From the NCBI GenBank assembly GCA_040756475.1, contig JBFLZB010000032.1:1-32485 (forward strand): 32,485 bases of DNA. Direction: 5' to 3'. The stretch's first letter is position 1. Each line of letters opens with the position of its first letter. Origin of the DNA: Thermodesulfobacteriota bacterium. GTDB taxonomy: Bacteria; Desulfobacterota; Deferrisomatia; Deferrisomatales; JACRMM01. The notes below the pieces were generated by a model that saw only the letters and a program-made list of their open reading frames with translations, was not told the origin of the DNA and made no database searches. Position numbers and translations under genes: made by a program. Positions 475 through 22,516 of the stretch are shown piece by piece.

Positions 475-876
475 CTATCGGGGCTCCAGGGGATAGCCGG
501 CGGACTTCCACTCCGCCCAGCCTCCGAGGAGGGCGTAGACCTTCGTGTACCCCATATCGGCCAGCTTGCGCGCCACACGGGCGCTCGTGGCTTCGTTGCC
601 TCAGGCGCAGTAGAAGACCAGGGTGGCGTCCTTGGGGTACTTGGGGGCCCAGGCCGCCTCCGCACCCGGCTCCTCCCGCACCGCCCCGGCGATCTTCTCC
701 GTGGCGCGGGTCCAGTCGCCTCCCGCCCTCACGTCGATTACCACCACGTCGGCGCTGCCCATCCGGGCACGCAGGTCCTCTTTGGTCATGCGGGGCACTT
801 CCGCTTGGCTGGGGACCGGCCCGGCACAGGCCAGGGCCAGGCCGACGAGGAGCAGGGCACATCGCTTCCACACCAT
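475..876 (-). CDS. Exported rhodanese-like protein, probable selenoprotein (in-frame TGA)
   Basis: The frame starts at ATG 876, 5 bases after a strong GGAGG, and encodes 133 residues if the TGA at 601-603 is read through. Residues 1-26 are a signal peptide (hydrophobic LLLVGLALACAG, likely cleavage after SQA). The rhodanese fold follows: DVVVIDVR near 43-50, then LVFYC with Cys90 in the active-site loop, Ala91, TGA at position 92, and GNEATSARVARKLADMGY. The end, LLGGWAEWKSAGYPLEPR, is the standard rhodanese C-terminus, so the fold needs both sides of the TGA. Related rhodaneses carry CxC-P-NEA in this loop, so the TGA replaces a second Cys, the usual place for selenocysteine. A SECIS-like hairpin follows immediately. 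The alternative is a nonsense-mutated pseudogene or a sequencing error. A truncated product ending at Ala91 would lack half the fold. Confidence 0.75.
560..591 (-). promoter_or_regulatory. Putative bacterial SECIS hairpin
   Basis: Reading the minus strand, the sequence 10-41 bases after the TGA folds as a two-tier stem. The lower arms GCCA/TGGC enclose an internal loop, and the upper arms GCGCC/GGCGC enclose a 5-base apical loop CGTGT starting 22 bases after the TGA. Bacterial SECIS elements require a small hairpin within the coding sequence, with an apical loop about 16-37 bases after the UGA and a G in the first two loop positions; here G is second. Hand-folded only, and GC-rich sequence folds easily by chance. 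Confidence 0.45.
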
Positions 877-1770: not shown

Positions 1771-1908
1771 GCGGGTTGTGGGTTGCATGTTGCCGGTTGC
1801 ATGTTGCCGGTTGGGGTTGCGCGTTGGGGGTTGCGCGTTGCAGGTGGCCCGTTGCGGCTCTGGTGGCGGGTTTCCTCCAACACGCCACGCGCAACCCGCC
1901 ACGCGCTA
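1771..1908. repeat. Degenerate heptamer tandem repeat with inverted counterpart
   Basis: From 1771 to about 1858 the plus strand is built of 12 consecutive units of the form GCNNGTT (GCGGGTT, GTGGGTT, GCATGTT, GCCGGTT, GCATGTT, GCCGGTT, a 6-base GGGGTT, GCGCGTT, GGGGGTT, GCGCGTT, GCAGGTG, GCCCGTT). After about 25 bases the same heptamer reappears on the opposite strand (1881-1908, ACGCGCA ACCCGCC ACGCGCT), so the ends can pair as a long hairpin. It fills the space between the 1053-residue protein and the mini-gene and is non-coding. Confidence 0.8.
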
Positions 1909-4900
1909 CTTCCCGTACTCCTCCTGCCACACCGTTTCATCGATCTCAACATACCCCAGGGTGTCGCCCAGCTCCACCCGGTCGCGCCGGTGCTTGACCT
2001 CCCGCACGAAGACGCCCTTCTCGGGGGCCGCCAGGGTCCAGGTGCCGTTGCCGCCCTCCAGGGTGACCAGGGGCTGGCCCTTGGCCACTTCCTCCCGGGG
2101 CTCGACCAGCCACTCGACGATGCGCACCCGGTCGCGCTCCTGGCGCGGGGCAAGCCGCGGCACGAAGACGGTGCCGTAGACCCGCCGCAGCTCGTCTTCG
2201 TTGGGGGCGCGGCTGGTGTGGCGGGCTTCGAGGACGGCGGTGCCGGGGGTGCTGCCCGCGGTGAAGGCGACGGCTCCCTGGCCGTTTCGGTCGGTGAGGA
2301 GGCTCGGGGCCGCGAGGCTCCCGCTGCCCGAGAGCAGCGCAAAGGTCACGGGCACCCCGATGTTGGGGTTGTCGTGGATGTCGGAGACGGTGACCGAGAG
2401 GGTGGCCTTGTCGCCCGAGACGAGCCGCTGGGCGCTGGCCACCAGGTCGATCTTGGCCGGGGCGTCGGCCCGCAGCTCGAGCTGCACGGCGGCGGTGACG
2501 CCGTGCTCGCGGCTCGCGGCGGTGAGGGTGACGTACCCGGCGAGCGTTCCCGCCCGGTACTCGGCCTCGGCCAGCCCTTGCTCGTCGGTGAGCCCGCTTC
2601 GCAAGACCCGCAGCCGCCCGTTGTCGCTGCCCAGGGCAAAGGTCACCCGCTGGCCGGCAAGCGGATTGCCCGCGAGATCGGTGAGCACGGCTTTCACGCG
2701 GCTGGTGCTTCGCCCGTCGGCGGTGAGCCACTCGGGGTCGGCGGTCAGGCGCAGGATGGCCCGGTCGGGGGTGCCCCGGGCCGCCCGGGGCAGGATCTCC
2801 AGCGCCACGGTGGAGGCGACGTAGGTGTGGAGCCACCCGGCCCCCACGTCGCCGGTGGTGAGGTTCTTGGCCAGGATCAGCGCGGTCTTGGCCGCAAACC
2901 CCGCGGTGTAGGTGGCCGCCACTTCGCCGAAGCTGTCGGTGACTCCCCCCCAGCGCACTTCCACGTTGTCCACGTCGTCCTGGGTGGCCGTGCGGTCTTC
3001 CAGGCGCCCGCCCCCCACCACCCCGGTGTACTCCTCGGTGGTGGAAAGCGTGAGCGCCAGCTCGTGGCCGGAGACGTCGTCGCCGTTGGCGTTGGTGGCC
3101 TTGGCCACGAGCCGGGTGGTGGCCTTGCGGTCGGCGGGTAACAGGCTGTCGCGGGCGCTCACGAGCAGCCGCACCCGGGTGTCGAGGGAGACGGGGCGCC
3201 CGGCGGTGGCGGTGGTCTCGTTTCCGGCCTCGTCGGCCAGGGTGACGAGGACGGGAAGGTCCACGCCCTCGTCGGACCAGCCCACGGTGTAGGTGCCGGT
3301 GTAGGTGCCCGGGCGCGTGGGCGACTCGGCCATGGGGATGAATCGCGCTACCCCCGGGAGGTCGAAGCTCGCGTAGCCTTGGGGCTCGCCTTCGAGGGTG
3401 ACGGTGAGGACGTCGCCCGCGACGAGCCTGCCGCTAAACCCGGCCGCGGCAAAGCCGTCGTGGCTTGCCTTGGAGAGGGTCGGGGGGGTGACGTCGTTCC
3501 ATACGTCCAGGCCCACCACGGCGAGCTCGGGGCCGGCCAGGGACGCGCTTCCGTAGTCGTCGGAGAGGTGGGCCACCACCCGGTGGAGCCCCCGGGTGGG
3601 CCCCACGTCGGCTTCGGTGACGGTGTAGGTGCCGCGGTAGACCCCGGTGCGGCCCTGCTCCACCAGGGGCAGCCCGGTGCCCAGCTCCCCGAGGTCCACG
3701 GTGAGGGTGCCCCCGCTCTGGCCGGTGACGGCAAGGGTCACGCTCTGGCCCGGGCGCAGGGGCCGGCCGAAGGGCTCCAGGTGGATGGAGGTGATCGCCG
3801 GGCCGTCGCCGGCCACGGCAGTCACCGAGACGGCCTCGCTCGGGGCGCTTCGGTTTCCCGCCTTGTCCACGGCGAGGACGGCGTAGTGGTAGGTGAGGCC
3901 GGGGACGACCCGGGTGTCCACCAGGGCGAGCTCCCGCAGCTCCTCGAAGGGCGCGCCCGTGAGGTCCGGCGCCCTGCCCTCCCCCCGGAAGACCAGGTAG
4001 TGGTCCAGATCCGCCGAGGCGCTCGCGGTCCAGGAGAGCTCGATCTCCTTGGCCCAGGGGGCGGTGGCGAGCACCCGCGCCGGGGGCTCGGGGGGGACGC
4101 TGTCGATGGCCACGGGCTTGCCGGTCAGGGTCGCGGTCTGCCCGGTGGCCGGGTCGGTGAGGGTGCCGGTGAGGGCCGCCGAGGCCAGGTTCAACCCCGG
4201 GGGTACGACCACGGAGCCCACGTAGACGCCGTCGTCGACTTCTTCCATGAGGACGCTTTCGGCCACGCCGGCCAGGGTGAAGGCGGCGGTGCCGTCGATG
4301 GAACCCCGCAGAGTGACTGTGATCTCCTGGCCCGCACCGTAGAATCCCTTCTCCGCCGCCACGGAGCCCACGTGGGCCGCCTGCCGCCAACCGTCGAAGG
4401 TGTCGAAGACGCGAAACTCCAGGAGCTTGGAGTGGAGGGGCACCGTGGCCCCGGCTGGAAACCGCGGATCGGTCTCCGCCCCGATGACCAGGTACCTGGC
4501 CCGCTCCAAGATGGGCCCCATCATGCCCGGCACCAGAATGTCCGGCAAGAGCTTCTCTCCGCCGGCGTACATCTCGACCCGGTCCCACTTCCAGGCCAAC
4601 ACATAGCGGTGCGGCACCCCGCGAGCGGCGAATCGGCGAGGAAGCCGCGTGCCGTTGCGGATGAACTCCGCCTCGGTGTAGTTGATCTCGAAAGGCTCCT
4701 CGAGCCAGCGGACCGCGGGCCCCCACACCGGTTCCCACTCGCCCGTGGTGAAGACGAAGAGCGCCTCGTGGTCTTGCCGCTCGTCCCGCTCGATGGTCAG
4801 AACGATGGATCCTTCCGCCGGGTCGAGAGGAGAGCCATCCAGGTCGAAATAGAGATACTCCGACGCCGTGGCGCTCTCGGGCACCCGGGAGAACCACCCC

Positions 4901-5067
4901 CCCTCCGGCAGCGCGCCCAGGCGCCCCGCGGACACCCCGTTTCGCCGCACCGTCGCATCCCCGGCCTCCAGCACCGGTCCCGCCGCCGCGCCGCCCGCCA
5001 GCCCCCCCCCGAGGCCCAGCGCCAGGCCTGCCGCCAGGGCCGCTCTCAGAACTCTCTTCTTCGTCAT
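1906..5067 (-). CDS. Secreted multidomain Ig/FN3/Big_1-like protein with C-terminal lipoyl-like barrel
   Basis: The frame encodes 1053 residues, starting at ATG 5067 after AAGGAG; a GTG 30 bases upstream is possible but has no ribosome site. Residues 1-30 are a signal peptide ending in GGAAAG. Then come, roughly: a LamG/lectin-like region (35-235), an Ig-like repeat (236-335), an FN3 domain (about 335-430, with WTASASADLDHYLVFR and LTYHYAVLAVDKAGNRSAP), two further Ig-like repeats containing YTGTYTV-type strands (430-650), and three invasin Big_1-like domains (650-950, for example LTDRNGQGAVAFTAGS). Residues 978-1043 look like a biotinyl/lipoyl barrel (VEPREEVAKGQPLVTLEGGNG ... APEKGVFVREV), but the attachment Lys turn is EGGNGTW, so no cofactor is expected. 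It lies 57 bases after the cytochrome gene in the same direction and is probably co-transcribed. Likely surface or periplasmic structural partner; the role is inferred. Confidence 0.8.
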   Translation of the reverse strand: MTKKRVLRAALAAGLALGLGGGLAGGAAAGPVLEAGDATVRRNGVSAGRLGALPEGGWFSRVPESATASEYLYFDLDGSPLDPAEGSIVLTIERDERQDHEALFVFTTGEWEPVWGPAVRWLEEPFEINYTEAEFIRNGTRLPRRFAARGVPHRYVLAWKWDRVEMYAGGEKLLPDILVPGMMGPILERARYLVIGAETDPRFPAGATVPLHSKLLEFRVFDTFDGWRQAAHVGSVAAEKGFYGAGQEITVTLRGSIDGTAAFTLAGVAESVLMEEVDDGVYVGSVVVPPGLNLASAALTGTLTDPATGQTATLTGKPVAIDSVPPEPPARVLATAPWAKEIELSWTASASADLDHYLVFRGEGRAPDLTGAPFEELRELALVDTRVVPGLTYHYAVLAVDKAGNRSAPSEAVSVTAVAGDGPAITSIHLEPFGRPLRPGQSVTLAVTGQSGGTLTVDLGELGTGLPLVEQGRTGVYRGTYTVTEADVGPTRGLHRVVAHLSDDYGSASLAGPELAVVGLDVWNDVTPPTLSKASHDGFAAAGFSGRLVAGDVLTVTLEGEPQGYASFDLPGVARFIPMAESPTRPGTYTGTYTVGWSDEGVDLPVLVTLADEAGNETTATAGRPVSLDTRVRLLVSARDSLLPADRKATTRLVAKATNANGDDVSGHELALTLSTTEEYTGVVGGGRLEDRTATQDDVDNVEVRWGGVTDSFGEVAATYTAGFAAKTALILAKNLTTGDVGAGWLHTYVASTVALEILPRAARGTPDRAILRLTADPEWLTADGRSTSRVKAVLTDLAGNPLAGQRVTFALGSDNGRLRVLRSGLTDEQGLAEAEYRAGTLAGYVTLTAASREHGVTAAVQLELRADAPAKIDLVASAQRLVSGDKATLSVTVSDIHDNPNIGVPVTFALLSGSGSLAAPSLLTDRNGQGAVAFTAGSTPGTAVLEARHTSRAPNEDELRRVYGTVFVPRLAPRQERDRVRIVEWLVEPREEVAKGQPLVTLEGGNGTWTLAAPEKGVFVREVKHRRDRVELGDTLGYVEIDETVWQEEYGK

Positions 5068-5124
5068 GGCCGTGTCTCCTTGAAGCACCTCACGCACAGT
5101 GCCGAGAGCGACTCCATACTTGCT

Positions 5125-8100
5125 CTAAGGATTGGGGTTCGCGCTCGGCTGCGTGTCCGGGCTCGTGTACTCCAGCCAGGGGCTCACCTTGTTCCACCCA
5201 GGTCCCCGCACCGTGCTCGGGCTGGTCGAGAGCACGGCCCGGTCGTCGAGCCGGTGGCAGTTGATGGCCGCCGCCCATTGGGAGACCCGGGTACCGGCCC
5301 AAGGCGATCCGATCGCGCCGGCCGCCTGGTAGTTGTTGTCCCAGGTGTTGTGATTGGTATCCAGGCAGTTGGTGATCAAGAGCTTGGGCAGCCGCGACGC
5401 GTGCGGGTTGTGGCACTTGCCGCAATTGAAGGTGTGGTACCTCGACTGGGCGGAATAGGATGCGGCTTCTGTAACGGTAGTGCTGCCTGCGCTGTTCAGA
5501 TCCGCAACCTGGATCTCCATAGTGCCGGATGCGATAGCAGAACCACGAGTATACGCAGAATTGTAAGCCGCGCTCCACGGGAAGTACCTGAAGCTGTACG
5601 GCCGGGTGGTCCCCGTTCCAGTAGCCGAAGTGGTAGCGATGCGGGGGTAGTAGCGGTACCCATCGGTCTCGTTGCTCCGGTACGTGTAGCCCCGACCGCT
5701 TTCCGTTGCGACACCCATATCTACGTTGGGGCTCGTACTGCTCCCCCGGACCGCCTGATTCGAGCCCCGCTTGGCTCGCGTGTAGATGTTGTGCGCGGCA
5801 AGCGTCGTTCCCGAGCCTCCGATCACCGCATTCATGTGCCCGTTGCCCCCGGAGACCCAGAGGTTCTCCCCCGTCGTGCGGTCCAGGGTGTCCACGTTGC
5901 TTCCGTGGCACTGGATGCACAGGCCTGCGGTGGAGGCGAGGGTCGCTCCCGAGTTGGGATTGCCGGAGTTCTGGTCGATCCACCACCCGCCCGCCTGGGG
6001 CACGCCGGTGAGGCCCGAGTTGTTGGATGCAGCGCTGGCCCGGGGCACCCTGCCGAAGGTGAGCGTCGTGTCCGCGTCCACCGTCCAGTTGGCCATGCCC
6101 CACTGGGGCGCGCCGTCCTCGGGGTAGGGGTTGCCCTTCCAGGTGCCCCGCAGGTAGGGCAGCCCGCCCGGGTCCCCCGCCACCCCGTCGTGGGTGCCGT
6201 GCACGTCGTGGCAGTAGGAGCACCGGATGTTGGCCACGCTGTCCTTGGTCTCGGTGCGGTTGTAGCCCAGGGAGTTGCCCGCGGTCACCGCCGCGGTCCC
6301 CTGGTCGAAGTTCACCGAGTGGGTGGACTGGATGGCGCCGCGCTTGTACCAGAAGGGGTTCGAGGCGCCGCCGCTGGAGCGGCCCTTGCCGCTGCGCCAG
6401 AAGGCCGTGGTCCAGTTGGAGGTCTGGGTGGTCCCCGTCACGGTGGTGTAGAGGCTCCCGTAGTCGTAGGAGAGGTTGCCGGTGTTGGGTTTCTGGTTGG
6501 TCTCCCACTCGGTCACCGCCGGGGTCTGGGCATCGTGGCAGCCCCAGCAGATCTCGGCCTCGGTGGCCCCTCCCGTGCTCCAACCCCCGCTCTTGGTCGC
6601 GCTGCCGCCCAGGCGAAAGCGCGAGCCGTGGCTGGCGTACTCGCGGTTCATGGTGGGCACCACCGTGCCAAGCACCGTGGAGCGGGTGGAGATTTCCACC
6701 TCGTTGGCTCCCGGAGACCCGTTGGCGTGGCCGCTGTGGCAGTCGGTGCAGTCCCCGAAGGCCGCCCCCCGGGTGACCCGGGTGTGGCTGCTCGCCGAGG
6801 TGACGAAGTCGGCGCTTCCCCCCAGACCGTGGCAGTCGGTACAGGCCGGCGCGGGCACGGGGTCGCCGCTCACGGGCTGGTTGGCGAAGACCGAGACGGG
6901 GAAGTTGTAGGCCGCGTCGGTTGCGCCGCCGTGACAGAAGCTGCACCCGGCGTTGCCGTCGCTTCGAGCGTAGCCAGAGCTATTGGTATTCGCGGTAATG
7001 CGGTGCTCGGCCGGGCTGCCGGTGGGCACGTTGTGCCGGCCGTTGCCGGCTGCGCCGTAGACGTGGCAGCCGTTGCAGTCGGCGCTCCCCGACGGCTCGT
7101 GTCCCGCGCCCCGGGCGTTTGTCGCAGCGTTGGTGCCACCCGCCTTGTAGTGGGTGGTGCCTTCGCGCCAGCCTGCGCTGCCTGCAATGCTCGCCCATTG
7201 GCCGTGGCACACGTTGCACCGGGCCGAGCGGGGTGCCGTGGCCGCCGAGTCGGCCTCAGTGGACCACAGCCGGGCCCAGGCTCCCCCGTCGGTGTGGCAG
7301 CCGACGAGCCCGGTGCCCGAGCACGTGCTGGTGTTGGCCGCCCCATCGGTGAAGGTCATATTCGTTCGCGCCAGGAACCGGTCGGTGTTGGCCGAGTTGT
7401 CCGGATCGAACACCCCGTCGGCGTGGGTGGCGGGCTTGGACGCATCGTGGCACGCCGTACACCCGCCCCCGGGGAGGGTGTCGCCGTGGGGCTGGGGGCC
7501 CGCCGCCGTGATGTGGTGGAGCCCGGTGGCCGGGTCGGCCGCCGCCGTACCTCCGGGGGTGTGGCACGCGGTGCACGCGATGCCGGTGGTGTTCCAGGCG
7601 GGGGTCGTGTGGTCGTTGTGGCACCCCAACCCCGGCGCGCTAGCGCAGGTGATGGCCGGGGCAACCCCGGCAGGACCGAGGGCCGCATTCACGATGACGC
7701 TGTTGTCGGCCACGTTGCTGTGGCCGCTGGTGTTGTCGGGATGGCACGCGGTGCAGTTGGCGGTGCTCCCCGTGGCCCAGCCCTTGCCCGTGTAGTGGCC
7801 CGGGTGGGCCCGGGCGCCCGCCCCCGTGGGGGGAAGCGCGTGGCAGCTCGAGCAGGTGGTGGTACCGCCCGTCCAGTTGGGCGTCTCGTTGTTGTAGTGG
7901 CAGTCGATGTTGCTGCACGTGGTGCCGTTCCAGGCCGCCGTGGCGGGATCGCCGTCGTAGCGGAAGTAGACATCGGCCACGCCGTTGTTGTGCAGCCCCG
8001 AAGGCCCGAACAGACCCACGGTGTAGTCGCCGCTCACGGTGCGCGTGGGGTCGCCGTGGCACGCGTCGCAGTCGGTGTAGTCGTTGTCGGACGTGGCGTG

Positions 8101-11100
8101 GGCCAGATGGGCGCCCGTGGCGGGCGGCGTGGCGTGGCACGTGATGCACCCTTCACCGACGCCGACTTCGGTGTACCACCCGGGGGTCTCGGTGTTGTTG
8201 TGGCAGTCGATGCTCAGGCAGGTCTGGGTAACGGCGTTGTAGCGGCCGTCGGTGTCGGTGGCGCCGGAAAGCGTCAGGAAGCGGGCGTCCGTGTCGGCGT
8301 CGGGGGTGCCGTCGCCGTTGGTGTCCATGTTGGAGACGCGCGCGGGGGCGACGCTCCCGTCGGGGTGTCCCGCCGGGGGATTGCCCGGGTGGCATGTATT
8401 GCACGCGGCGTTGCCGGTGCCGATGGCGGCGAGGTGCACGTCGTGGGCGCCGGCCCGGTCGGGATAGGAAAGCGCCGGCGTGCTGTCGGGCCAGTTTTGT
8501 CCTGCCCCGTCGCCGTGGCAGGAGTCGCACCCGGCCTCGATGGGGTCGCCCAGCACGGTCTCGAAGGGCCACCCGGTGGTGGCAAAAGAGTGCTGCCCCA
8601 ACGCCGTGCCGTCGTAGGCGGCGTGGCAGGGCGCGCACCCCGTCAGGCCCGCGTCGGCCCCGGTGCCCCGGGCCACCCCGGTGCCCTCGGCGTTGAGGGT
8701 GATGCGGGCGTTGCCGTGCCGGCCGGCGCTCCAGGGCGCGAAGGCGTAGTTGCCGGTGGCGGCCTCCAGGGCGTGGCAGTCCTTGCACTGGTAGAGGTTG
8801 CCCGCGCCGTGGATGCTTCGGGTGCCGGCGTCGGTGCGGTGGGTCACCCCGACCCGCCAGCCCTGGGTCCAGGTGCCGTGGCAGCCCACGCACTCAGAGC
8901 CGTCGGCGGCGGCGGAGCTCTCGTGCCACAGGCGCCGCCAGGCGCCTCCATCGAGGTGGCAGCCCGTCATGGAAGTGGAGCACCCGGGGGTTGCGGCGTC
9001 CTGGAAGCCCACCGCCGCCGCGAACTGGACCATGGGGGCGCTGGGCTGGAAGGTGCCGTCCAAGTGGGCGGACGACGGGGTGGCGGTGTGGCAGGTGACG
9101 CACTCGGCGGTGGAGGCCCCGCCGTTGTATAGGAAGCTCGCCCCGTGGCGCACCCCCGAGATCGTCGGGGTGGTGTCGTGGAGACCCGTGGTGGGGTTGG
9201 CCCCGGAGGCACCCTCGGTGTGGCACATCACACAGGTGGCCGTGGCACCGTCGTACCAGTTGTAGCCGGGGTCGGTGCTCTTGGTGTTGTGGCAGGCGAG
9301 GTTGGCGCACGTGCCGGTGGCCGCGCTGTAAACGGCGCCGGCGTCGGCGAGCCCGTCCCACAGGCGGTTGAAGGCGCCCACATCCGCCGGCTCGTCGGCC
9401 CCGGTGTAGCCCGGGGGATAGTGCCCGCTGCCCCCGATCCCGACCGGGTCGTTGTGGCAGTAGGCGCACATGGCCCGCTGCTGGACTCCGTCGACGGTAC
9501 CCGCCGGGTAGCCCAGCTTGGCTTCGAGCTGCGCCAGGTGGGCCGCGTGCTCCCCCGCCCGATTGGGGTAGGCAAGCCCTACGGGGGCGTAGCGCCCGGC
9601 CCCGTCGCCGTGGCAGGCGTCGCACCCCACGGGGGGCACTTCGCCGTCGACCAGTTGCAGGGGCCATACGGTGGTGACGAAGGCGTGCTGGCCCGGGGCG
9701 GCGCCGTCGAAGGCCGCGTGGCACGGCGAGCAGCCCGACTGGCCGGCGTTGGCTCCGGTGCCTCGCGCAAAGCTCGTGCCCGCGTTGTTGATGGTGATCT
9801 GGCTGTTGCCGTGCTGGCTGGTGCCCCCCCAGTCGTTGGTGCCCAGAACAAAGGTGTAGCCCGCGGTCTCCAGGGCGTGGCAGTCCTTGCACTGGTAGGC
9901 GCTGCCCGAGGACCCGTGCACGTCGCCGGTGACCTGGTCGGTGCGGTGGACGACCCCCTGATTCCACCCTTGGGCCCAGCTGCCGTGGCACCCGGCGCAC
10001 TCGGTGCCGTCGGTGGCCCCGGCGGCCTGGGTCCACAACCGGGCCCAGCGGCCGCCCTCGGAGTGGCAGTCCACCAGGGAGCCCGTGGGGGAGCAGGTGG
10101 GGGTGGCGGCATCCTGGTAGCCCACGTCGGACGCAAAGACGATGGCGGTGTTCCCCGCGGCGTTGGGCGTGGCGTCGAAGGTGCCGTCGTGGTGGCGCGT
10201 GGAGGGGATGCCGGTATGGCACGCCTGGCACCCGGCAGGACCGAAGGAGGGGTTCGCGAGGGTCTGGTCGTGGCGCACCCCGGAGACCGTGGGGGTCACC
10301 GCGTGGATGCCGGTGTAGGGGTTGAAGGCCGGATCGTTGTTGGTGTGACAGAAGACGCACCCGCCCTCACCCCCCGTATCCCAGTCGGCCGTTCCCGACG
10401 TGCCCGTGGCGTGGCAGCCCACCGACATGCCCGAGCCCGAGCAGCGGTTGTTGGGGCCTGCCCCGTCGTCGGCGCTCCCCGCGGCGCCCAGGGCGGCATT
10501 TTGCCCGTTGTAGCTCAGGTTGGCCCGGGTCACGGTGGCCTCGCCCCGCTCGGCCAGGGCTCGGTCCCGGAAGTACCCCCCGTCGGTCACGGCCACGGGC
10601 ACCGAGATGTGGCTCGTGTCCCCCGCCGGGGGCACCACGTGGCAGTCGGAGCAGACCTTGAAGACCCCGGGGGTGCCGTCGCCGAAGTGGCGGTCGTGGG
10701 TGAAGTCCTGGCAGTTGGGCACGGCGGCGTTTCGCGCCCCCGTGGGCTGGACGTCGTAGTAGTGGCACGAAGAGCAGTCCAGCGAGGTGTCGGTCCACAG
10801 GGCCGCGGGAACGACCTTCCCCGAGCCGGCCGAGTCGTCGGTGCCGTTGTTGAGGTGGCAGGCGTTGGCGCAGGTCTGGGCGCCCCCGTTCCACTGCACC
10901 CCCAGGGCGGTGGTGGCCGCATCCCACTCGCCGAAGAGGTCGGTCTGGCCGTTTCGGTGCAGCCCGTTGGGGGAGCCGTCGTTGGTGTACGCCGCCGCCC
11001 CGCTGTGACAGTTGGCGCAGTCGGTGCGGTCGGTGTCGCCGTTGCCGATGACGTGGGCCAGGTGCGCCCCCGTGGCCGGCGGGTCGCCGTGGCACGAGCC

Positions 11101-13617
11101 GCAGTTGAAACCCTGGCCGGCGATGAGCTGCAAAGGATTGCCCGAGTCGCTCATCTGGTAGGGAGTTGCGGCGGGATGACAGGCGCTCGTGCACCCGGCC
11201 GGCGTGCCGGTGAACCCGCTCGCCCCCTGGTAGCCCATGCTGCTGTTGAGCTGGATGGTGCCGTCCAGGTGCATGGCGGCGGTGTAGGCCGGCTGGGTGT
11301 TGGCGTGGCAGTAGTCGCACCGGCCCTCGCCGTCGGCACCGAGATCTGCGGCCCCCTGGTGGAGGTTGTAGAGGGTGGTGTTCTCGTTCCCGTCGGGGTT
11401 GGCCAGAGGACCGGAGTGCTTCGCCACGACGGTGGTGGGCAGAGGCACCCCGTTGGGGCTGAGACCAAAGGTGCCGTGGCAGTTGGCGCAATCGCCCGTC
11501 GGGGCGGTCCAGGCCACGTCGGCGTAGGCCCCGTGGCAGCTGATGCTGGCGCAGGTGCCCCCCGCGTAAGTGAACGTCACCGCCTGGCCGTTGAAGCTGC
11601 CCCCGGCCTTGAGGTTCTTCGTGCCGTTGACGTGGGAGGCGAGCCCCGCGATGGCCGTGGTCGTGTCGGTGCCCGCGGCCGTGACGGTGTCGTTATGGCA
11701 GTGGGCGCAGGTGATCCCCGCCCACGCCAGGTGGATGGGGTGGTTGCCGGTGGCGATGCGGGTGGGCTCGTCGACGCCCCCGTGGCAGGCGTTGCACGCC
11801 AGGTTCTGGGTGCTCCAGTCCGGGGTGGCAAAGCCGCTCATCCACTGCACGCTGCCCACCGAGGCGCCCGACTGGCCGTCGGAGTGGCAGTAGAGGTTGT
11901 TGCAGGTGGCCGCGCCCACGTCGTAGGTGCCGCTGGGATTTGCGGCGGTGTCGAAGTTGAGGCTCTGGTAGGTCTTGGGATCGGTGTTGTGGGTGGCAGA
12001 GCTGGTGTAGTCGAGGTGGCAGGTCTGGCAGGCGTAGCCGTAGCCCCCCTGGTCCACCGGCGCCGCATGCCGTCGGTGGGGGCTCGCCGCCTCGGAAAAG
12101 CGCGTGTAGCCCTCGGAGGTGGTGGCGGTGGACACCGGGGGCTGGCCGTGGCAGGTGGTACAGGAGGCCTTGGCCCCCCAGCTGCCGCCCTCGTCGGTGT
12201 GGGTGTGGCACACCTGGCAGACGAAATCCCCCCCGGTGGCCACGTCGCCCCCGGAGTGGCGCCCCCCGGTGAGGAAGGTCGAGAGGGGGTAGATCTCGTC
12301 GCCGGCCACCACCCGCCCCTGGTGGCACTCCCGGTTGTCGCACAGCCCCGTGCCGTCGGTCTTGTAGGTGGTGTCGTCGTAGGCCAGGTATGCGTTGGTG
12401 TCGTAGGGGGCCGAGGCCGTCCCGTCCCCGTACACGGGGGTGCCGGCGGCGTCCACCTTGGGAATCTCGACCCGCACCATCGCCACGTTGGGCGCCACCC
12501 CCGCCCCGTGGGGCTCGTGGCAGTCGTTGCACCCGGCCTTGGCCGTGGTGCCCCCGTGGAGCTTGCCCGTGTACTGGCTGTGGCAGGTCAGACACACGGA
12601 GTAGGCCTGGTTGTAGGGCGCCTGCTGCCGGATGGCGCTCTGGACCGAGGTGTTCTCGGCAAAGGCGAACCGAAGAGGGTTGGTGCCGGGCGCCGACCGC
12701 GCGAAGTCGTGGGGGACGCTGCCGCTGTGGCACGCGGTGCACCCAAGCGTGCCGCTGGAGATCGTGCTCTGCCCATGGCCCTTGGCCGCGTACACCCCGG
12801 CGTCGTCTTGCACGTGGCACTCCCCGCACTTTTCCGGGGTGACCCGGGTGCCCAGGGGGTCGCCCGGGTTGTTGGAGGTGGTGCCGTCGGTGCGAAGCGT
12901 GACCAGCGAGGTGTTCTGGTAACTGTTGTGGCTGCCGTGGCACTGGGTGCACGAGGTGGGCGCCGCCCCGTCGTTGATGGTTGCCCGCCCCATGCCGTGG
13001 GCCGCCGGGGCCGTGTACCCCCCGGTGCTGGACCCCGTGTCGCTGTGGCAGGCGGCGTTGCGGCAGGTGTTGTCCGAGACCTGGGAAGCATCGTCCGGCG
13101 CCCCGATCAGGCTGGCGTACAAGTTGAGCCGCGTGCCACCCCCGGCGTCGATCCCGTGGACGCTGGCGTTGCCCGAGCCGTCGCTTTCCACCCCCGCGGT
13201 GATGTGTGCGTGGCAGTCGAGGCAGTCGAGCGCCGTGGCGTTTCCCCCGAATCCGCTCTGGATGTCGCTGGGGTGCTTGGAGGTGGAGCTGGCGTCGAAG
13301 TGGTCCCACACCCCCTTCATCCGGTCCCGATTCAGCACCGAGGGCGCGGCGTTCTTGTCGTGGCAGAAGAGGCACGGCGCCTGGGGGTTGCTCGCCGAGA
13401 TCCCCAGGGCCACGGTGCGGTCGGACTTCTTGAGCAGGTGGGTGCCGAGCACCATCTTGGATTTGGAGACGGCGTGGCAGTCGTAGCAGATGGCACCCGG
13501 AGGGTAGTGGGTGGCTGCCCCGGCACCGCCGGCCCCCGTCACCAGGGCGACGCCCGCCGCATACGCCACTCTTGCCGCCCAGGTCCGTCCGCGTCGCAGA
13601 TACGGCTTACCCGCCAT
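5125..13617 (-). CDS. Giant multihaem c-type cytochrome, 2830 residues, about 48 CxxCH motifs
   Basis: The frame starts at ATG 13617, 8 bases after GGGAGG. Residues 1-35 are an Arg-rich signal peptide ending AGAGAA. I count 48 canonical CxxCH haem sites by eye, seven CxxxxCH (for example CRNAACH, CDNRECH, CNNLYCH, CASISCH, CANLACH, CLSIDCH, CSNIDCH), two CxxxCH (CTSACH, CANACH) and five longer CX6-8CH. The pairing of CxxxxCH with a following CxxCH is the Geobacter CxxxxCH...CxxCH domain pattern. The middle of the protein carries three copies of a seven-haem module. The last ~700 residues are haem-poor (CWGCH, CSYCH, CIQCH, CGKCH) and rich in Ser, Thr, Gly and Tyr, perhaps a beta-rich surface portion. 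No lipobox, membrane anchor or sorting tail is seen. By family it should be exported, haem-loaded and act in electron transfer over long distance; the redox partner is unknown. First gene of an operon with the Ig-like protein. Confidence 0.95.
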   Translation of the reverse strand: MAGKPYLRRGRTWAARVAYAAGVALVTGAGGAGAATHYPPGAICYDCHAVSKSKMVLGTHLLKKSDRTVALGISASNPQAPCLFCHDKNAAPSVLNRDRMKGVWDHFDASSTSKHPSDIQSGFGGNATALDCLDCHAHITAGVESDGSGNASVHGIDAGGGTRLNLYASLIGAPDDASQVSDNTCRNAACHSDTGSSTGGYTAPAAHGMGRATINDGAAPTSCTQCHGSHNSYQNTSLVTLRTDGTTSNNPGDPLGTRVTPEKCGECHVQDDAGVYAAKGHGQSTISSGTLGCTACHSGSVPHDFARSAPGTNPLRFAFAENTSVQSAIRQQAPYNQAYSVCLTCHSQYTGKLHGGTTAKAGCNDCHEPHGAGVAPNVAMVRVEIPKVDAAGTPVYGDGTASAPYDTNAYLAYDDTTYKTDGTGLCDNRECHQGRVVAGDEIYPLSTFLTGGRHSGGDVATGGDFVCQVCHTHTDEGGSWGAKASCTTCHGQPPVSTATTSEGYTRFSEAASPHRRHAAPVDQGGYGYACQTCHLDYTSSATHNTDPKTYQSLNFDTAANPSGTYDVGAATCNNLYCHSDGQSGASVGSVQWMSGFATPDWSTQNLACNACHGGVDEPTRIATGNHPIHLAWAGITCAHCHNDTVTAAGTDTTTAIAGLASHVNGTKNLKAGGSFNGQAVTFTYAGGTCASISCHGAYADVAWTAPTGDCANCHGTFGLSPNGVPLPTTVVAKHSGPLANPDGNENTTLYNLHQGAADLGADGEGRCDYCHANTQPAYTAAMHLDGTIQLNSSMGYQGASGFTGTPAGCTSACHPAATPYQMSDSGNPLQLIAGQGFNCGSCHGDPPATGAHLAHVIGNGDTDRTDCANCHSGAAAYTNDGSPNGLHRNGQTDLFGEWDAATTALGVQWNGGAQTCANACHLNNGTDDSAGSGKVVPAALWTDTSLDCSSCHYYDVQPTGARNAAVPNCQDFTHDRHFGDGTPGVFKVCSDCHVVPPAGDTSHISVPVAVTDGGYFRDRALAERGEATVTRANLSYNGQNAALGAAGSADDGAGPNNRCSGSGMSVGCHATGTSGTADWDTGGEGGCVFCHTNNDPAFNPYTGIHAVTPTVSGVRHDQTLANPSFGPAGCQACHTGIPSTRHHDGTFDATPNAAGNTAIVFASDVGYQDAATPTCSPTGSLVDCHSEGGRWARLWTQAAGATDGTECAGCHGSWAQGWNQGVVHRTDQVTGDVHGSSGSAYQCKDCHALETAGYTFVLGTNDWGGTSQHGNSQITINNAGTSFARGTGANAGQSGCSPCHAAFDGAAPGQHAFVTTVWPLQLVDGEVPPVGCDACHGDGAGRYAPVGLAYPNRAGEHAAHLAQLEAKLGYPAGTVDGVQQRAMCAYCHNDPVGIGGSGHYPPGYTGADEPADVGAFNRLWDGLADAGAVYSAATGTCANLACHNTKSTDPGYNWYDGATATCVMCHTEGASGANPTTGLHDTTPTISGVRHGASFLYNGGASTAECVTCHTATPSSAHLDGTFQPSAPMVQFAAAVGFQDAATPGCSTSMTGCHLDGGAWRRLWHESSAAADGSECVGCHGTWTQGWRVGVTHRTDAGTRSIHGAGNLYQCKDCHALEAATGNYAFAPWSAGRHGNARITLNAEGTGVARGTGADAGLTGCAPCHAAYDGTALGQHSFATTGWPFETVLGDPIEAGCDSCHGDGAGQNWPDSTPALSYPDRAGAHDVHLAAIGTGNAACNTCHPGNPPAGHPDGSVAPARVSNMDTNGDGTPDADTDARFLTLSGATDTDGRYNAVTQTCLSIDCHNNTETPGWYTEVGVGEGCITCHATPPATGAHLAHATSDNDYTDCDACHGDPTRTVSGDYTVGLFGPSGLHNNGVADVYFRYDGDPATAAWNGTTCSNIDCHYNNETPNWTGGTTTCSSCHALPPTGAGARAHPGHYTGKGWATGSTANCTACHPDNTSGHSNVADNSVIVNAALGPAGVAPAITCASAPGLGCHNDHTTPAWNTTGIACTACHTPGGTAAADPATGLHHITAAGPQPHGDTLPGGGCTACHDASKPATHADGVFDPDNSANTDRFLARTNMTFTDGAANTSTCSGTGLVGCHTDGGAWARLWSTEADSAATAPRSARCNVCHGQWASIAGSAGWREGTTHYKAGGTNAATNARGAGHEPSGSADCNGCHVYGAAGNGRHNVPTGSPAEHRITANTNSSGYARSDGNAGCSFCHGGATDAAYNFPVSVFANQPVSGDPVPAPACTDCHGLGGSADFVTSASSHTRVTRGAAFGDCTDCHSGHANGSPGANEVEISTRSTVLGTVVPTMNREYASHGSRFRLGGSATKSGGWSTGGATEAEICWGCHDAQTPAVTEWETNQKPNTGNLSYDYGSLYTTVTGTTQTSNWTTAFWRSGKGRSSGGASNPFWYKRGAIQSTHSVNFDQGTAAVTAGNSLGYNRTETKDSVANIRCSYCHDVHGTHDGVAGDPGGLPYLRGTWKGNPYPEDGAPQWGMANWTVDADTTLTFGRVPRASAASNNSGLTGVPQAGGWWIDQNSGNPNSGATLASTAGLCIQCHGSNVDTLDRTTGENLWVSGGNGHMNAVIGGSGTTLAAHNIYTRAKRGSNQAVRGSSTSPNVDMGVATESGRGYTYRSNETDGYRYYPRIATTSATGTGTTRPYSFRYFPWSAAYNSAYTRGSAIASGTMEIQVADLNSAGSTTVTEAASYSAQSRYHTFNCGKCHNPHASRLPKLLITNCLDTNHNTWDNNYQAAGAIGSPWAGTRVSQWAAAINCHRLDDRAVLSTSPSTVRGPGWNKVSPWLEYTSPDTQPSANPNP
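6820..10365 (-). repeat. Three diverged copies of a ~270-residue seven-haem module
   Basis: Within the cytochrome gene three blocks share the same order of landmarks: about 9535-10365, 8425-9240 and 6820-7585. Each runs CxxCH, SGVRH or equivalent, CxxCH, a long-spaced CX6-8CH followed by (D/E)GG.WARLW, CxGCHGxW, CxxCH (CKDCHALE in two), ARGTGA.AG.xGCxPCHAA or equivalent, and C(D/T)xCHG. Copies 1 and 2 are clearly similar; the third is more diverged. Internal duplication explains part of the protein's size. Confidence 0.75.
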
Positions 13618-13948
13618 CGACCCTTCCTCCCTCTCGATTCCTTGTTCCGCGACACCCATAGGGGTCGCAGCCCCAGGGCCGGGCCTCGCCCAGCCGCCTC
13701 TTGCTCCCGGCCCCGGCTCCACCAGCCGCGTGCCCTCAGTGCCCGTGCTTCTGGTGCGGTCCGGGGCACGCCACCGAAAGACGCCACCATTGAATCTGCA
13801 GACACAAGAGCGCGGCGATTACTGTATAGAAATCGCGCTTGTTACGCCATACATGGAAAAATAGTGGTTCCGATTCTCTACTGTACGCATCGATACCAAC
13901 GTTGCGGTTGCCGTTTAGCAAATGCAGCATGTCATATACGTTTTTCGT

Positions 13949-21752: not shown

Positions 21753-22202
21753 CTAGTTGAGGGGGTAGCCCGCCGCGGTCCACTCCGCCGTGCCGCCCCG
21801 GAACCACATGACGTTCGTGTAGCCGTCGCGAATCGAGAGGACGGCGGCCTTGTAGGACTTCCAGCCCGTCGGGCCGTCGCTGTAGAAGACCACCGCCGCG
21901 CCCTTGTCCGCCGGCAGCTGGGCGGCGTCGAGCCGGTCCAGCGAGGCGTCGAAGTCGGCGCTCAGGGCGCTCTTCTGGTCGTAGGGAAGCGCCACGGCGC
22001 CCGGGATGTGGCCGCGACCGTAGTTGACGGCCTTTCGCATGTCGAAGAAGTGGGCCTTGCCGACGAGGTCTTTGGCCTGGGCCGCCGTGAGGATCTTGCC
22101 CCCGGCCAGCTCTCTGGGTGTCTCCACGTCGGCCGCAAGGGCAGCCGTGCCCACAAGGAGCCCGATGGTCAGGGTGAGCGCAATTCCGCCAGACTTCTTC
22201 AT
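21753..22202 (-). CDS. Exported rhodanese-like protein lacking the catalytic cysteine
   Basis: The product has 149 residues. Two ATGs compete: the one at 22208 abuts GGAGG, so the second at 22202 (6-base spacer) is chosen. Residues 1-24 are a signal peptide (IGLLVGTAALAA). The rhodanese fold is clear: HFFDMRKAVNYGRGHIPGAVALP (pattern near 51-73), then the active-site loop VVFYSDGPTGWKSY and the end WFRGGTAEWTAAGYPLN. Close relatives have Cys at the loop start, often with a second Cys before Trp; here Ser108 (AGC codon) and Gly replace them, so sulfur transfer is not expected. It may bind rather than transfer, or be on the way to loss. It lies 96 bases upstream of the chemoreceptor on the same strand. 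Confidence 0.85.
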   Translation of the reverse strand: MKKSGGIALTLTIGLLVGTAALAADVETPRELAGGKILTAAQAKDLVGKAHFFDMRKAVNYGRGHIPGAVALPYDQKSALSADFDASLDRLDAAQLPADKGAAVVFYSDGPTGWKSYKAAVLSIRDGYTNVMWFRGGTAEWTAAGYPLN

Positions 22203-22516
22203 CTTCATCCTCCGGGGGGCTGGGGGCCGGGAATCTCCCGTCCGAGGTTGCGTGGGGTCGGTTTGCTTGACGTCGGGAACGCGGTTTCGGTGCGCGCCAG
22301 TCGGCGTATCGACAACCCGGCGGGGATGCTTGAGGATATTTCTGCGCCTTTTGCATGGGGCGGGGCGCAGGGCCGGAGGCAGAGGGGGCGTGCCGGCCGC
22401 TCCGCGCCTCGGCCTGGACTTGGGGACTAGAGATTCTTGAGGACCGGAAATCTGGAACGATGGGACAAGTTTCGCTCCAGAAAAATGGCAGGTCCGCTTC
22501 GCTTGACCCACCGGTC

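Follow-up and report, generated by a model that had tools for sequence, protein, structure and literature searches.

A predicted exported rhodanese-like selenoprotein with a Cys-x-Sec active-site loop in a Thermodesulfobacteriota genome

The window considered here is the whole stretch of 32,485 nucleotides analysed from a draft Thermodesulfobacteriota genome. Near its start, the gene for a rhodanese-like protein contains an in-frame TGA, and the locus raises the question of whether this codon is read as selenocysteine (Sec) and, if so, what a Sec residue would contribute to a rhodanese active site. Standard gene callers would cut such a gene in two at the TGA or miss it. The prediction of a selenoprotein is now supported by comparative data, and the gene very probably encodes a genuine exported, single-domain rhodanese selenoprotein of the CxU family NF041203, as judged from its sequence and those of its relatives. 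The features of the locus are collected in Table 1.

Table 1. Coordinates of the features of the rhodanese-like gene within the window
Feature	Position	Strand	Remarks
Rhodanese-like selenoprotein coding sequence (predicted)	475–876	minus	ATG at 876–874, TAG at 477–475; 133 residues, Sec at residue 92
In-frame TGA read as Sec 92 (C90-A-U92)	601–603	minus	Codon shared as TGA by 117 of 127 distinct relatives
Likely ribosome-binding site, AAAGGAGG-like	882–889 (approximate)	minus	Inferred from sequence reading; a few bases 5′ of the ATG
N-terminal export signal MVWKRCALLLVGLALACAGPVPSQA (putative)	799–876	minus	From sequence reading; cleavage probably near SQA/E (residues 25–26)
bSECIS core (predicted)	570–584	minus	Stem GCGCC (584–580)/GGCGC (574–570), loop CGTGT (579–575), invariant G at 578

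The interrupted reading frame and its family

The TGA is the sole interruption of the coding sequence, and read-through of this codon yields the full-length protein. It had been proposed that the codon divides one rhodanese domain in two, and the Pfam model Rhodanese (PF00581) indeed spans the TGA, matching residues 31–125 (E 4.5e-14; 53.2 bits against a gathering score of 22.2). The TGA also lies, as proposed, two residues past the Cys of the catalytic loop. This active-site loop reads FYC-A-U-GNEATSARVA, with the catalytic Cys at position 90 and the TGA at position 92 of the protein. Hydrophobic leaders similar to that of the window protein are also present in relatives. If the signal is real, the protein would be exported and its active site would face the outside of the cytoplasm.

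The read-through protein matches the NCBIfam model NF041203 with 164.5 bits against a curated cut-off of 115, with residues 16–133 aligned to positions 9–126 of the 126 in the model. This family, rhodanese_LYCAU or ‘rhodanese-related (seleno)protein’, carries the same CxU loop (YCAU) with Sec at the same place, present in the window protein as FYCAUGNEATSA. The change from LYCAU to FYCAU is not an important difference. The family is entered in selenoprotein review listings as rhodanese-like form 3, CxU (PMC13188914), and as COG0607 form 2, CxU (PMC9312934). By its sequence, the window gene is a further member of a selenoprotein family that was already predicted and catalogued, and its novelty is therefore low. 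No tested function for the NF041203 family was found in the literature.

Of 395 genomes sampled from the phylum, 60 contain a match to NF041203 above the cut-off, in most cases with a TGA inside. Together with 80 named loci, these 60 genomes supplied a comparison set of 127 distinct sequences scoring more than 90 bits. The loop pairs of this set are Cys-x-TGA (104), TGA-x-TGA (13), Cys-x-Ser (5), Cys-x-Cys (3), Cys-x-Ala (1) and Ser-x-Ser (1). The original prediction, which called for an alignment of homologues at residue 92, had taken CxC to be the usual form in related rhodaneses. Cys does occur at the Sec position, but only in 3/127 sequences, with Ser in 6/127 and Ala in 1/127. As Cys is so rare among close relatives, Sec is the rule in this family and not an exception to a CxC norm. 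The few relatives that keep Ser or Ala indicate that some lineages can do without U92. The TGA-bearing relatives include the named genera Desulfacinum and Desulfospira. In the tree, the window gene clusters with genes of a genome of the same family (G001) and one of the same order (G002), all of which are CxU. The half of the domain encoded 3′ of the TGA is conserved as protein, with G118, G119 and W123 invariant.

The hairpin behind the TGA and the selenocysteine machinery

Published rules for bSECIS elements allow a loop of 3–9 nt, a stem of 4–16 bp, a G as first or second loop base, a spacing of 16–37 nt and a minimum free energy (MFE) of at most −7.5 (PMC13188914). The window hairpin falls within these limits, with a loop of 5 nt beginning 21 nt after the TGA, a stem of 5 bp, a G as the second loop base and −7.6 kcal/mol. 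Taken alone, it is at chance level (z −0.30), with equal stability reached in 23% of synonymous randomisations. An Rfam scan of the region returned chance-level matches only.

It is the comparison of relatives that backs the element. RNAalifold, applied to 121 TGA sequences, gave one 5-bp hairpin in which positions +20–24 pair with +30–34 (counted from the T of the TGA), and all five pairs form in 117/121. The pair 21:33, which joins two codon third positions, is T-A in 76 sequences, C-G in 39 and another combination in 6. The Fisher value for this covariation, 8e-26, is uncorrected for kinship and overstates its strength, since related sequences are not independent; the changes are nevertheless silent on both sides. 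The G at +26 in the apical loop is invariant (121/121) and the base at +27 is always T or G. Within the stem, serine is encoded by AGY and alanine by GCC, a choice that departs from usage elsewhere in the same genes. Relative to synonymous randomisation, the mean folding z is −0.98 after the TGA, compared with −0.23 before it and +0.07 in relatives that have no TGA. The pairing is lost in most of these non-TGA relatives. The exceptions are L186 (Cys) and L086 (Ser), which keep the hairpin without Sec and are apparently recent conversions in which Sec was lost lately. Covariation across the relatives, at silent sites, thus supports a bacterial SECIS behind the TGA. The hairpin had been described as two-tiered; its upper tier stands as the 5-bp stem, but no conserved lower stem was found by RNAalifold among the 121 TGA sequences.

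The source genome is a draft of 4.99 Mb in 369 contigs and is 96% complete. The machinery whose presence the original prediction had made a check was found in full: selA (570.3 bits), selB (331.8 bits) and selD (259.7 bits) all exceed their curated cut-offs, and tRNA-Sec (selC) scores 70.9 bits against a gathering score of 47. These matches show that the source cell can insert Sec. One in-frame TGA lies within the selD match. The presence of selB does not discriminate for the window gene, because almost every relative sampled carries it, whether or not such a gene is there: it was found in 59/60 genomes that have a family member or a weaker relative, and in 22/24 comparison genomes (20 without a family match and 4 with weak matches).

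Isolated errors are possible in a draft assembly, and the TGA could in principle have arisen by misreading of the sequence or by recent nonsense mutation of an ordinary or dead rhodanese. This is extremely unlikely, as independent genomes, G001 and G002 among them, carry the same TGA; across the comparison set it occupies this codon in 117/127 distinct relatives, including Desulfacinum and Desulfospira, and a covarying hairpin lies behind it. Reassignment of the codon to another amino acid, or deliberate termination at residue 91, can be proposed for any in-frame TGA. Here it is very unlikely: the part of the domain past the TGA, with its invariant residues, is conserved as protein, the full Sec machinery is present in the genome, and the hairpin is mostly gone where the TGA has been exchanged for a Cys, Ser or Ala codon. 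The proposal of selenocysteine at this position was well founded in the light of these results.

Possible function of the Cys-x-Sec pair

The AlphaFold model (59 rows) is a confident rhodanese domain, with a strand (85–89), a loop (90–95) and a helix (96–107) at the active site. Its best matches among solved PDB structures are rhodaneses, including GlpE and Sud (1qxn). Sud, the polysulfide-sulfur transferase of Wolinella succinogenes, is periplasmic and shares the single-domain rhodanese fold. The likeness is a fold match only, and Sud has no Sec, whereas the window protein has a predicted one. The GlpE/PspE thiosulfate sulfurtransferases have the common rhodanese fold and a loop that begins with the catalytic Cys but lack Sec at +2, and the window protein is far under their NCBIfam cut-offs. 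TsoB (NF045694, UxxxxU), a rhodanese/DsbD fusion-like selenoprotein, resembles the window protein in having Sec in the rhodanese active-site loop. It differs in its Sec spacing and its DsbD-like fusion, and the window protein scores 31.7 against the NF045694 cut-off of 805.

SelB and Sec-tRNA very probably recode the TGA, aided by the short hairpin downstream, a step that the comparison of sequences supports. In the proposed mechanism, once the protein is exported, C90, the first residue of the active-site loop, would take up sulfane sulfur as a persulfide, like other rhodaneses. U92, two residues further on in the same loop, would be a selenolate that quickly resolves the persulfide or transfers its sulfur, being the better nucleophile and leaving group. 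Sulfide may then be released through a C90-U92 selenenylsulfide that is reduced by a periplasmic reductant; alternatively, U92 may donate the sulfur to an acceptor. The closest working analogy would be Sud, a polysulfide carrier of the periplasm. The chance that C90 and U92 act in sulfur transfer is roughly even. No polysulfide reductase was seen beside the gene within the window. Crude ORF clustering over 81 loci of relatives found no conserved partner gene; the clusters that recurred resembled generic genes, shadow ORFs or the rhodanese gene itself.

Two features of the relatives are concrete clues to the function of the family. In 13 relatives (L037, L043, L044, L065, L069, L073, L082, L083, L096, L107, L108, L139 and L174) both positions are Sec. 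These UxU forms have two TGAs 6 nt apart ahead of one hairpin, and are scattered on the tree, where supported branches force at least seven label changes. The family is listed with one Sec only in a 2026 review (PMC13188914), and the literature search turned up no paper about UxU rhodaneses. The other feature is the fusion of the Sec rhodanese to a cytochrome of about 400 residues with eight CxxCH motifs, present in L041, L082, L083 and L107 (four genomes, two families). The fused cytochrome matches hydroxylamine oxidoreductases in the PDB and the Pfam model Multi-haem_cyto. Unlike these relatives, the window protein stands alone.

Instead of a sulfurtransferase, the window protein could be a Sec rhodanese fold with another activity, namely a redox enzyme or oxyanion reductase working through a C90-U92 selenenylsulfide couple. 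The CxU pair is like two-cysteine redox sites, the UxU forms fit a redox pair, and in four relatives an octaheme cytochrome is joined to the rhodanese. By sequence, the loop-to-helix stretch also exceeds that of 6mxv and 2hhg by two residues. This activity is a real possibility, though on balance a doubtful one, as the predicted active-site loop has six residues and rhodaneses are the nearest folds among solved structures. In the relatives, the UxU forms and the cytochrome fusions both suggest a respiratory connection, which is no proof for the window protein. As the fusions suggest an octaheme cytochrome partner, a wider and rather unlikely reading would place the CxU and UxU rhodaneses in a respiratory electron chain, as its exported module for handling sulfur or oxyanions. 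Octaheme c-type cytochromes would re-reduce the Sec/Cys or Sec/Sec pair, or receive its product, and one SECIS would serve both TGAs of the UxU forms. For the window protein itself, sulfur transfer by C90 and U92 is the preferred activity.

Other genes of the genome and the window

Three more rhodaneses with an in-frame TGA are encoded in the same genome (L002, L004 and L005; G000:C40, C37 and C237), each with a bSECIS-like hairpin 21–22 nt past the TGA. Their loops read YCAUHEKP, YCAUPQEA (in a protein without a clear signal peptide) and YCLGMKU, respectively. The best match of the YCLGMKU rhodanese is TsoB, at 58.7 bits and under the cut-off. A second rhodanese-like protein of the window (21753–22511, minus strand) is apparently exported. 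Its loop is FYSDGPTG, with Ser at the place of the catalytic Cys, and by its sequence it is probably not a sulfurtransferase.

A 20-residue peptide, MKKSRYVKPQVVGTSSVHPC, is encoded at 1698–1757 on the minus strand, with more near-identical copies in the genome. It has no NCBIfam match, but was matched in 17 other genomes of the 118 sampled, with an end that is usually exactly VHPC. The VHPC peptide was considered as a second selenoprotein of the window and ruled out, because one relative has TAA at its end and a terminator-like hairpin follows. One copy, in L211, has radical SAM-like ORFs nearby. In several genomes, the peptide is encoded just 3′ of the gene for an exported protein of about 1060 residues, which in the window lies at 1906–5097. 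The minus strand at 5125–13722 encodes a very large multihaem cytochrome, a protein of 2865 residues packed with CxxCH motifs for haem binding.
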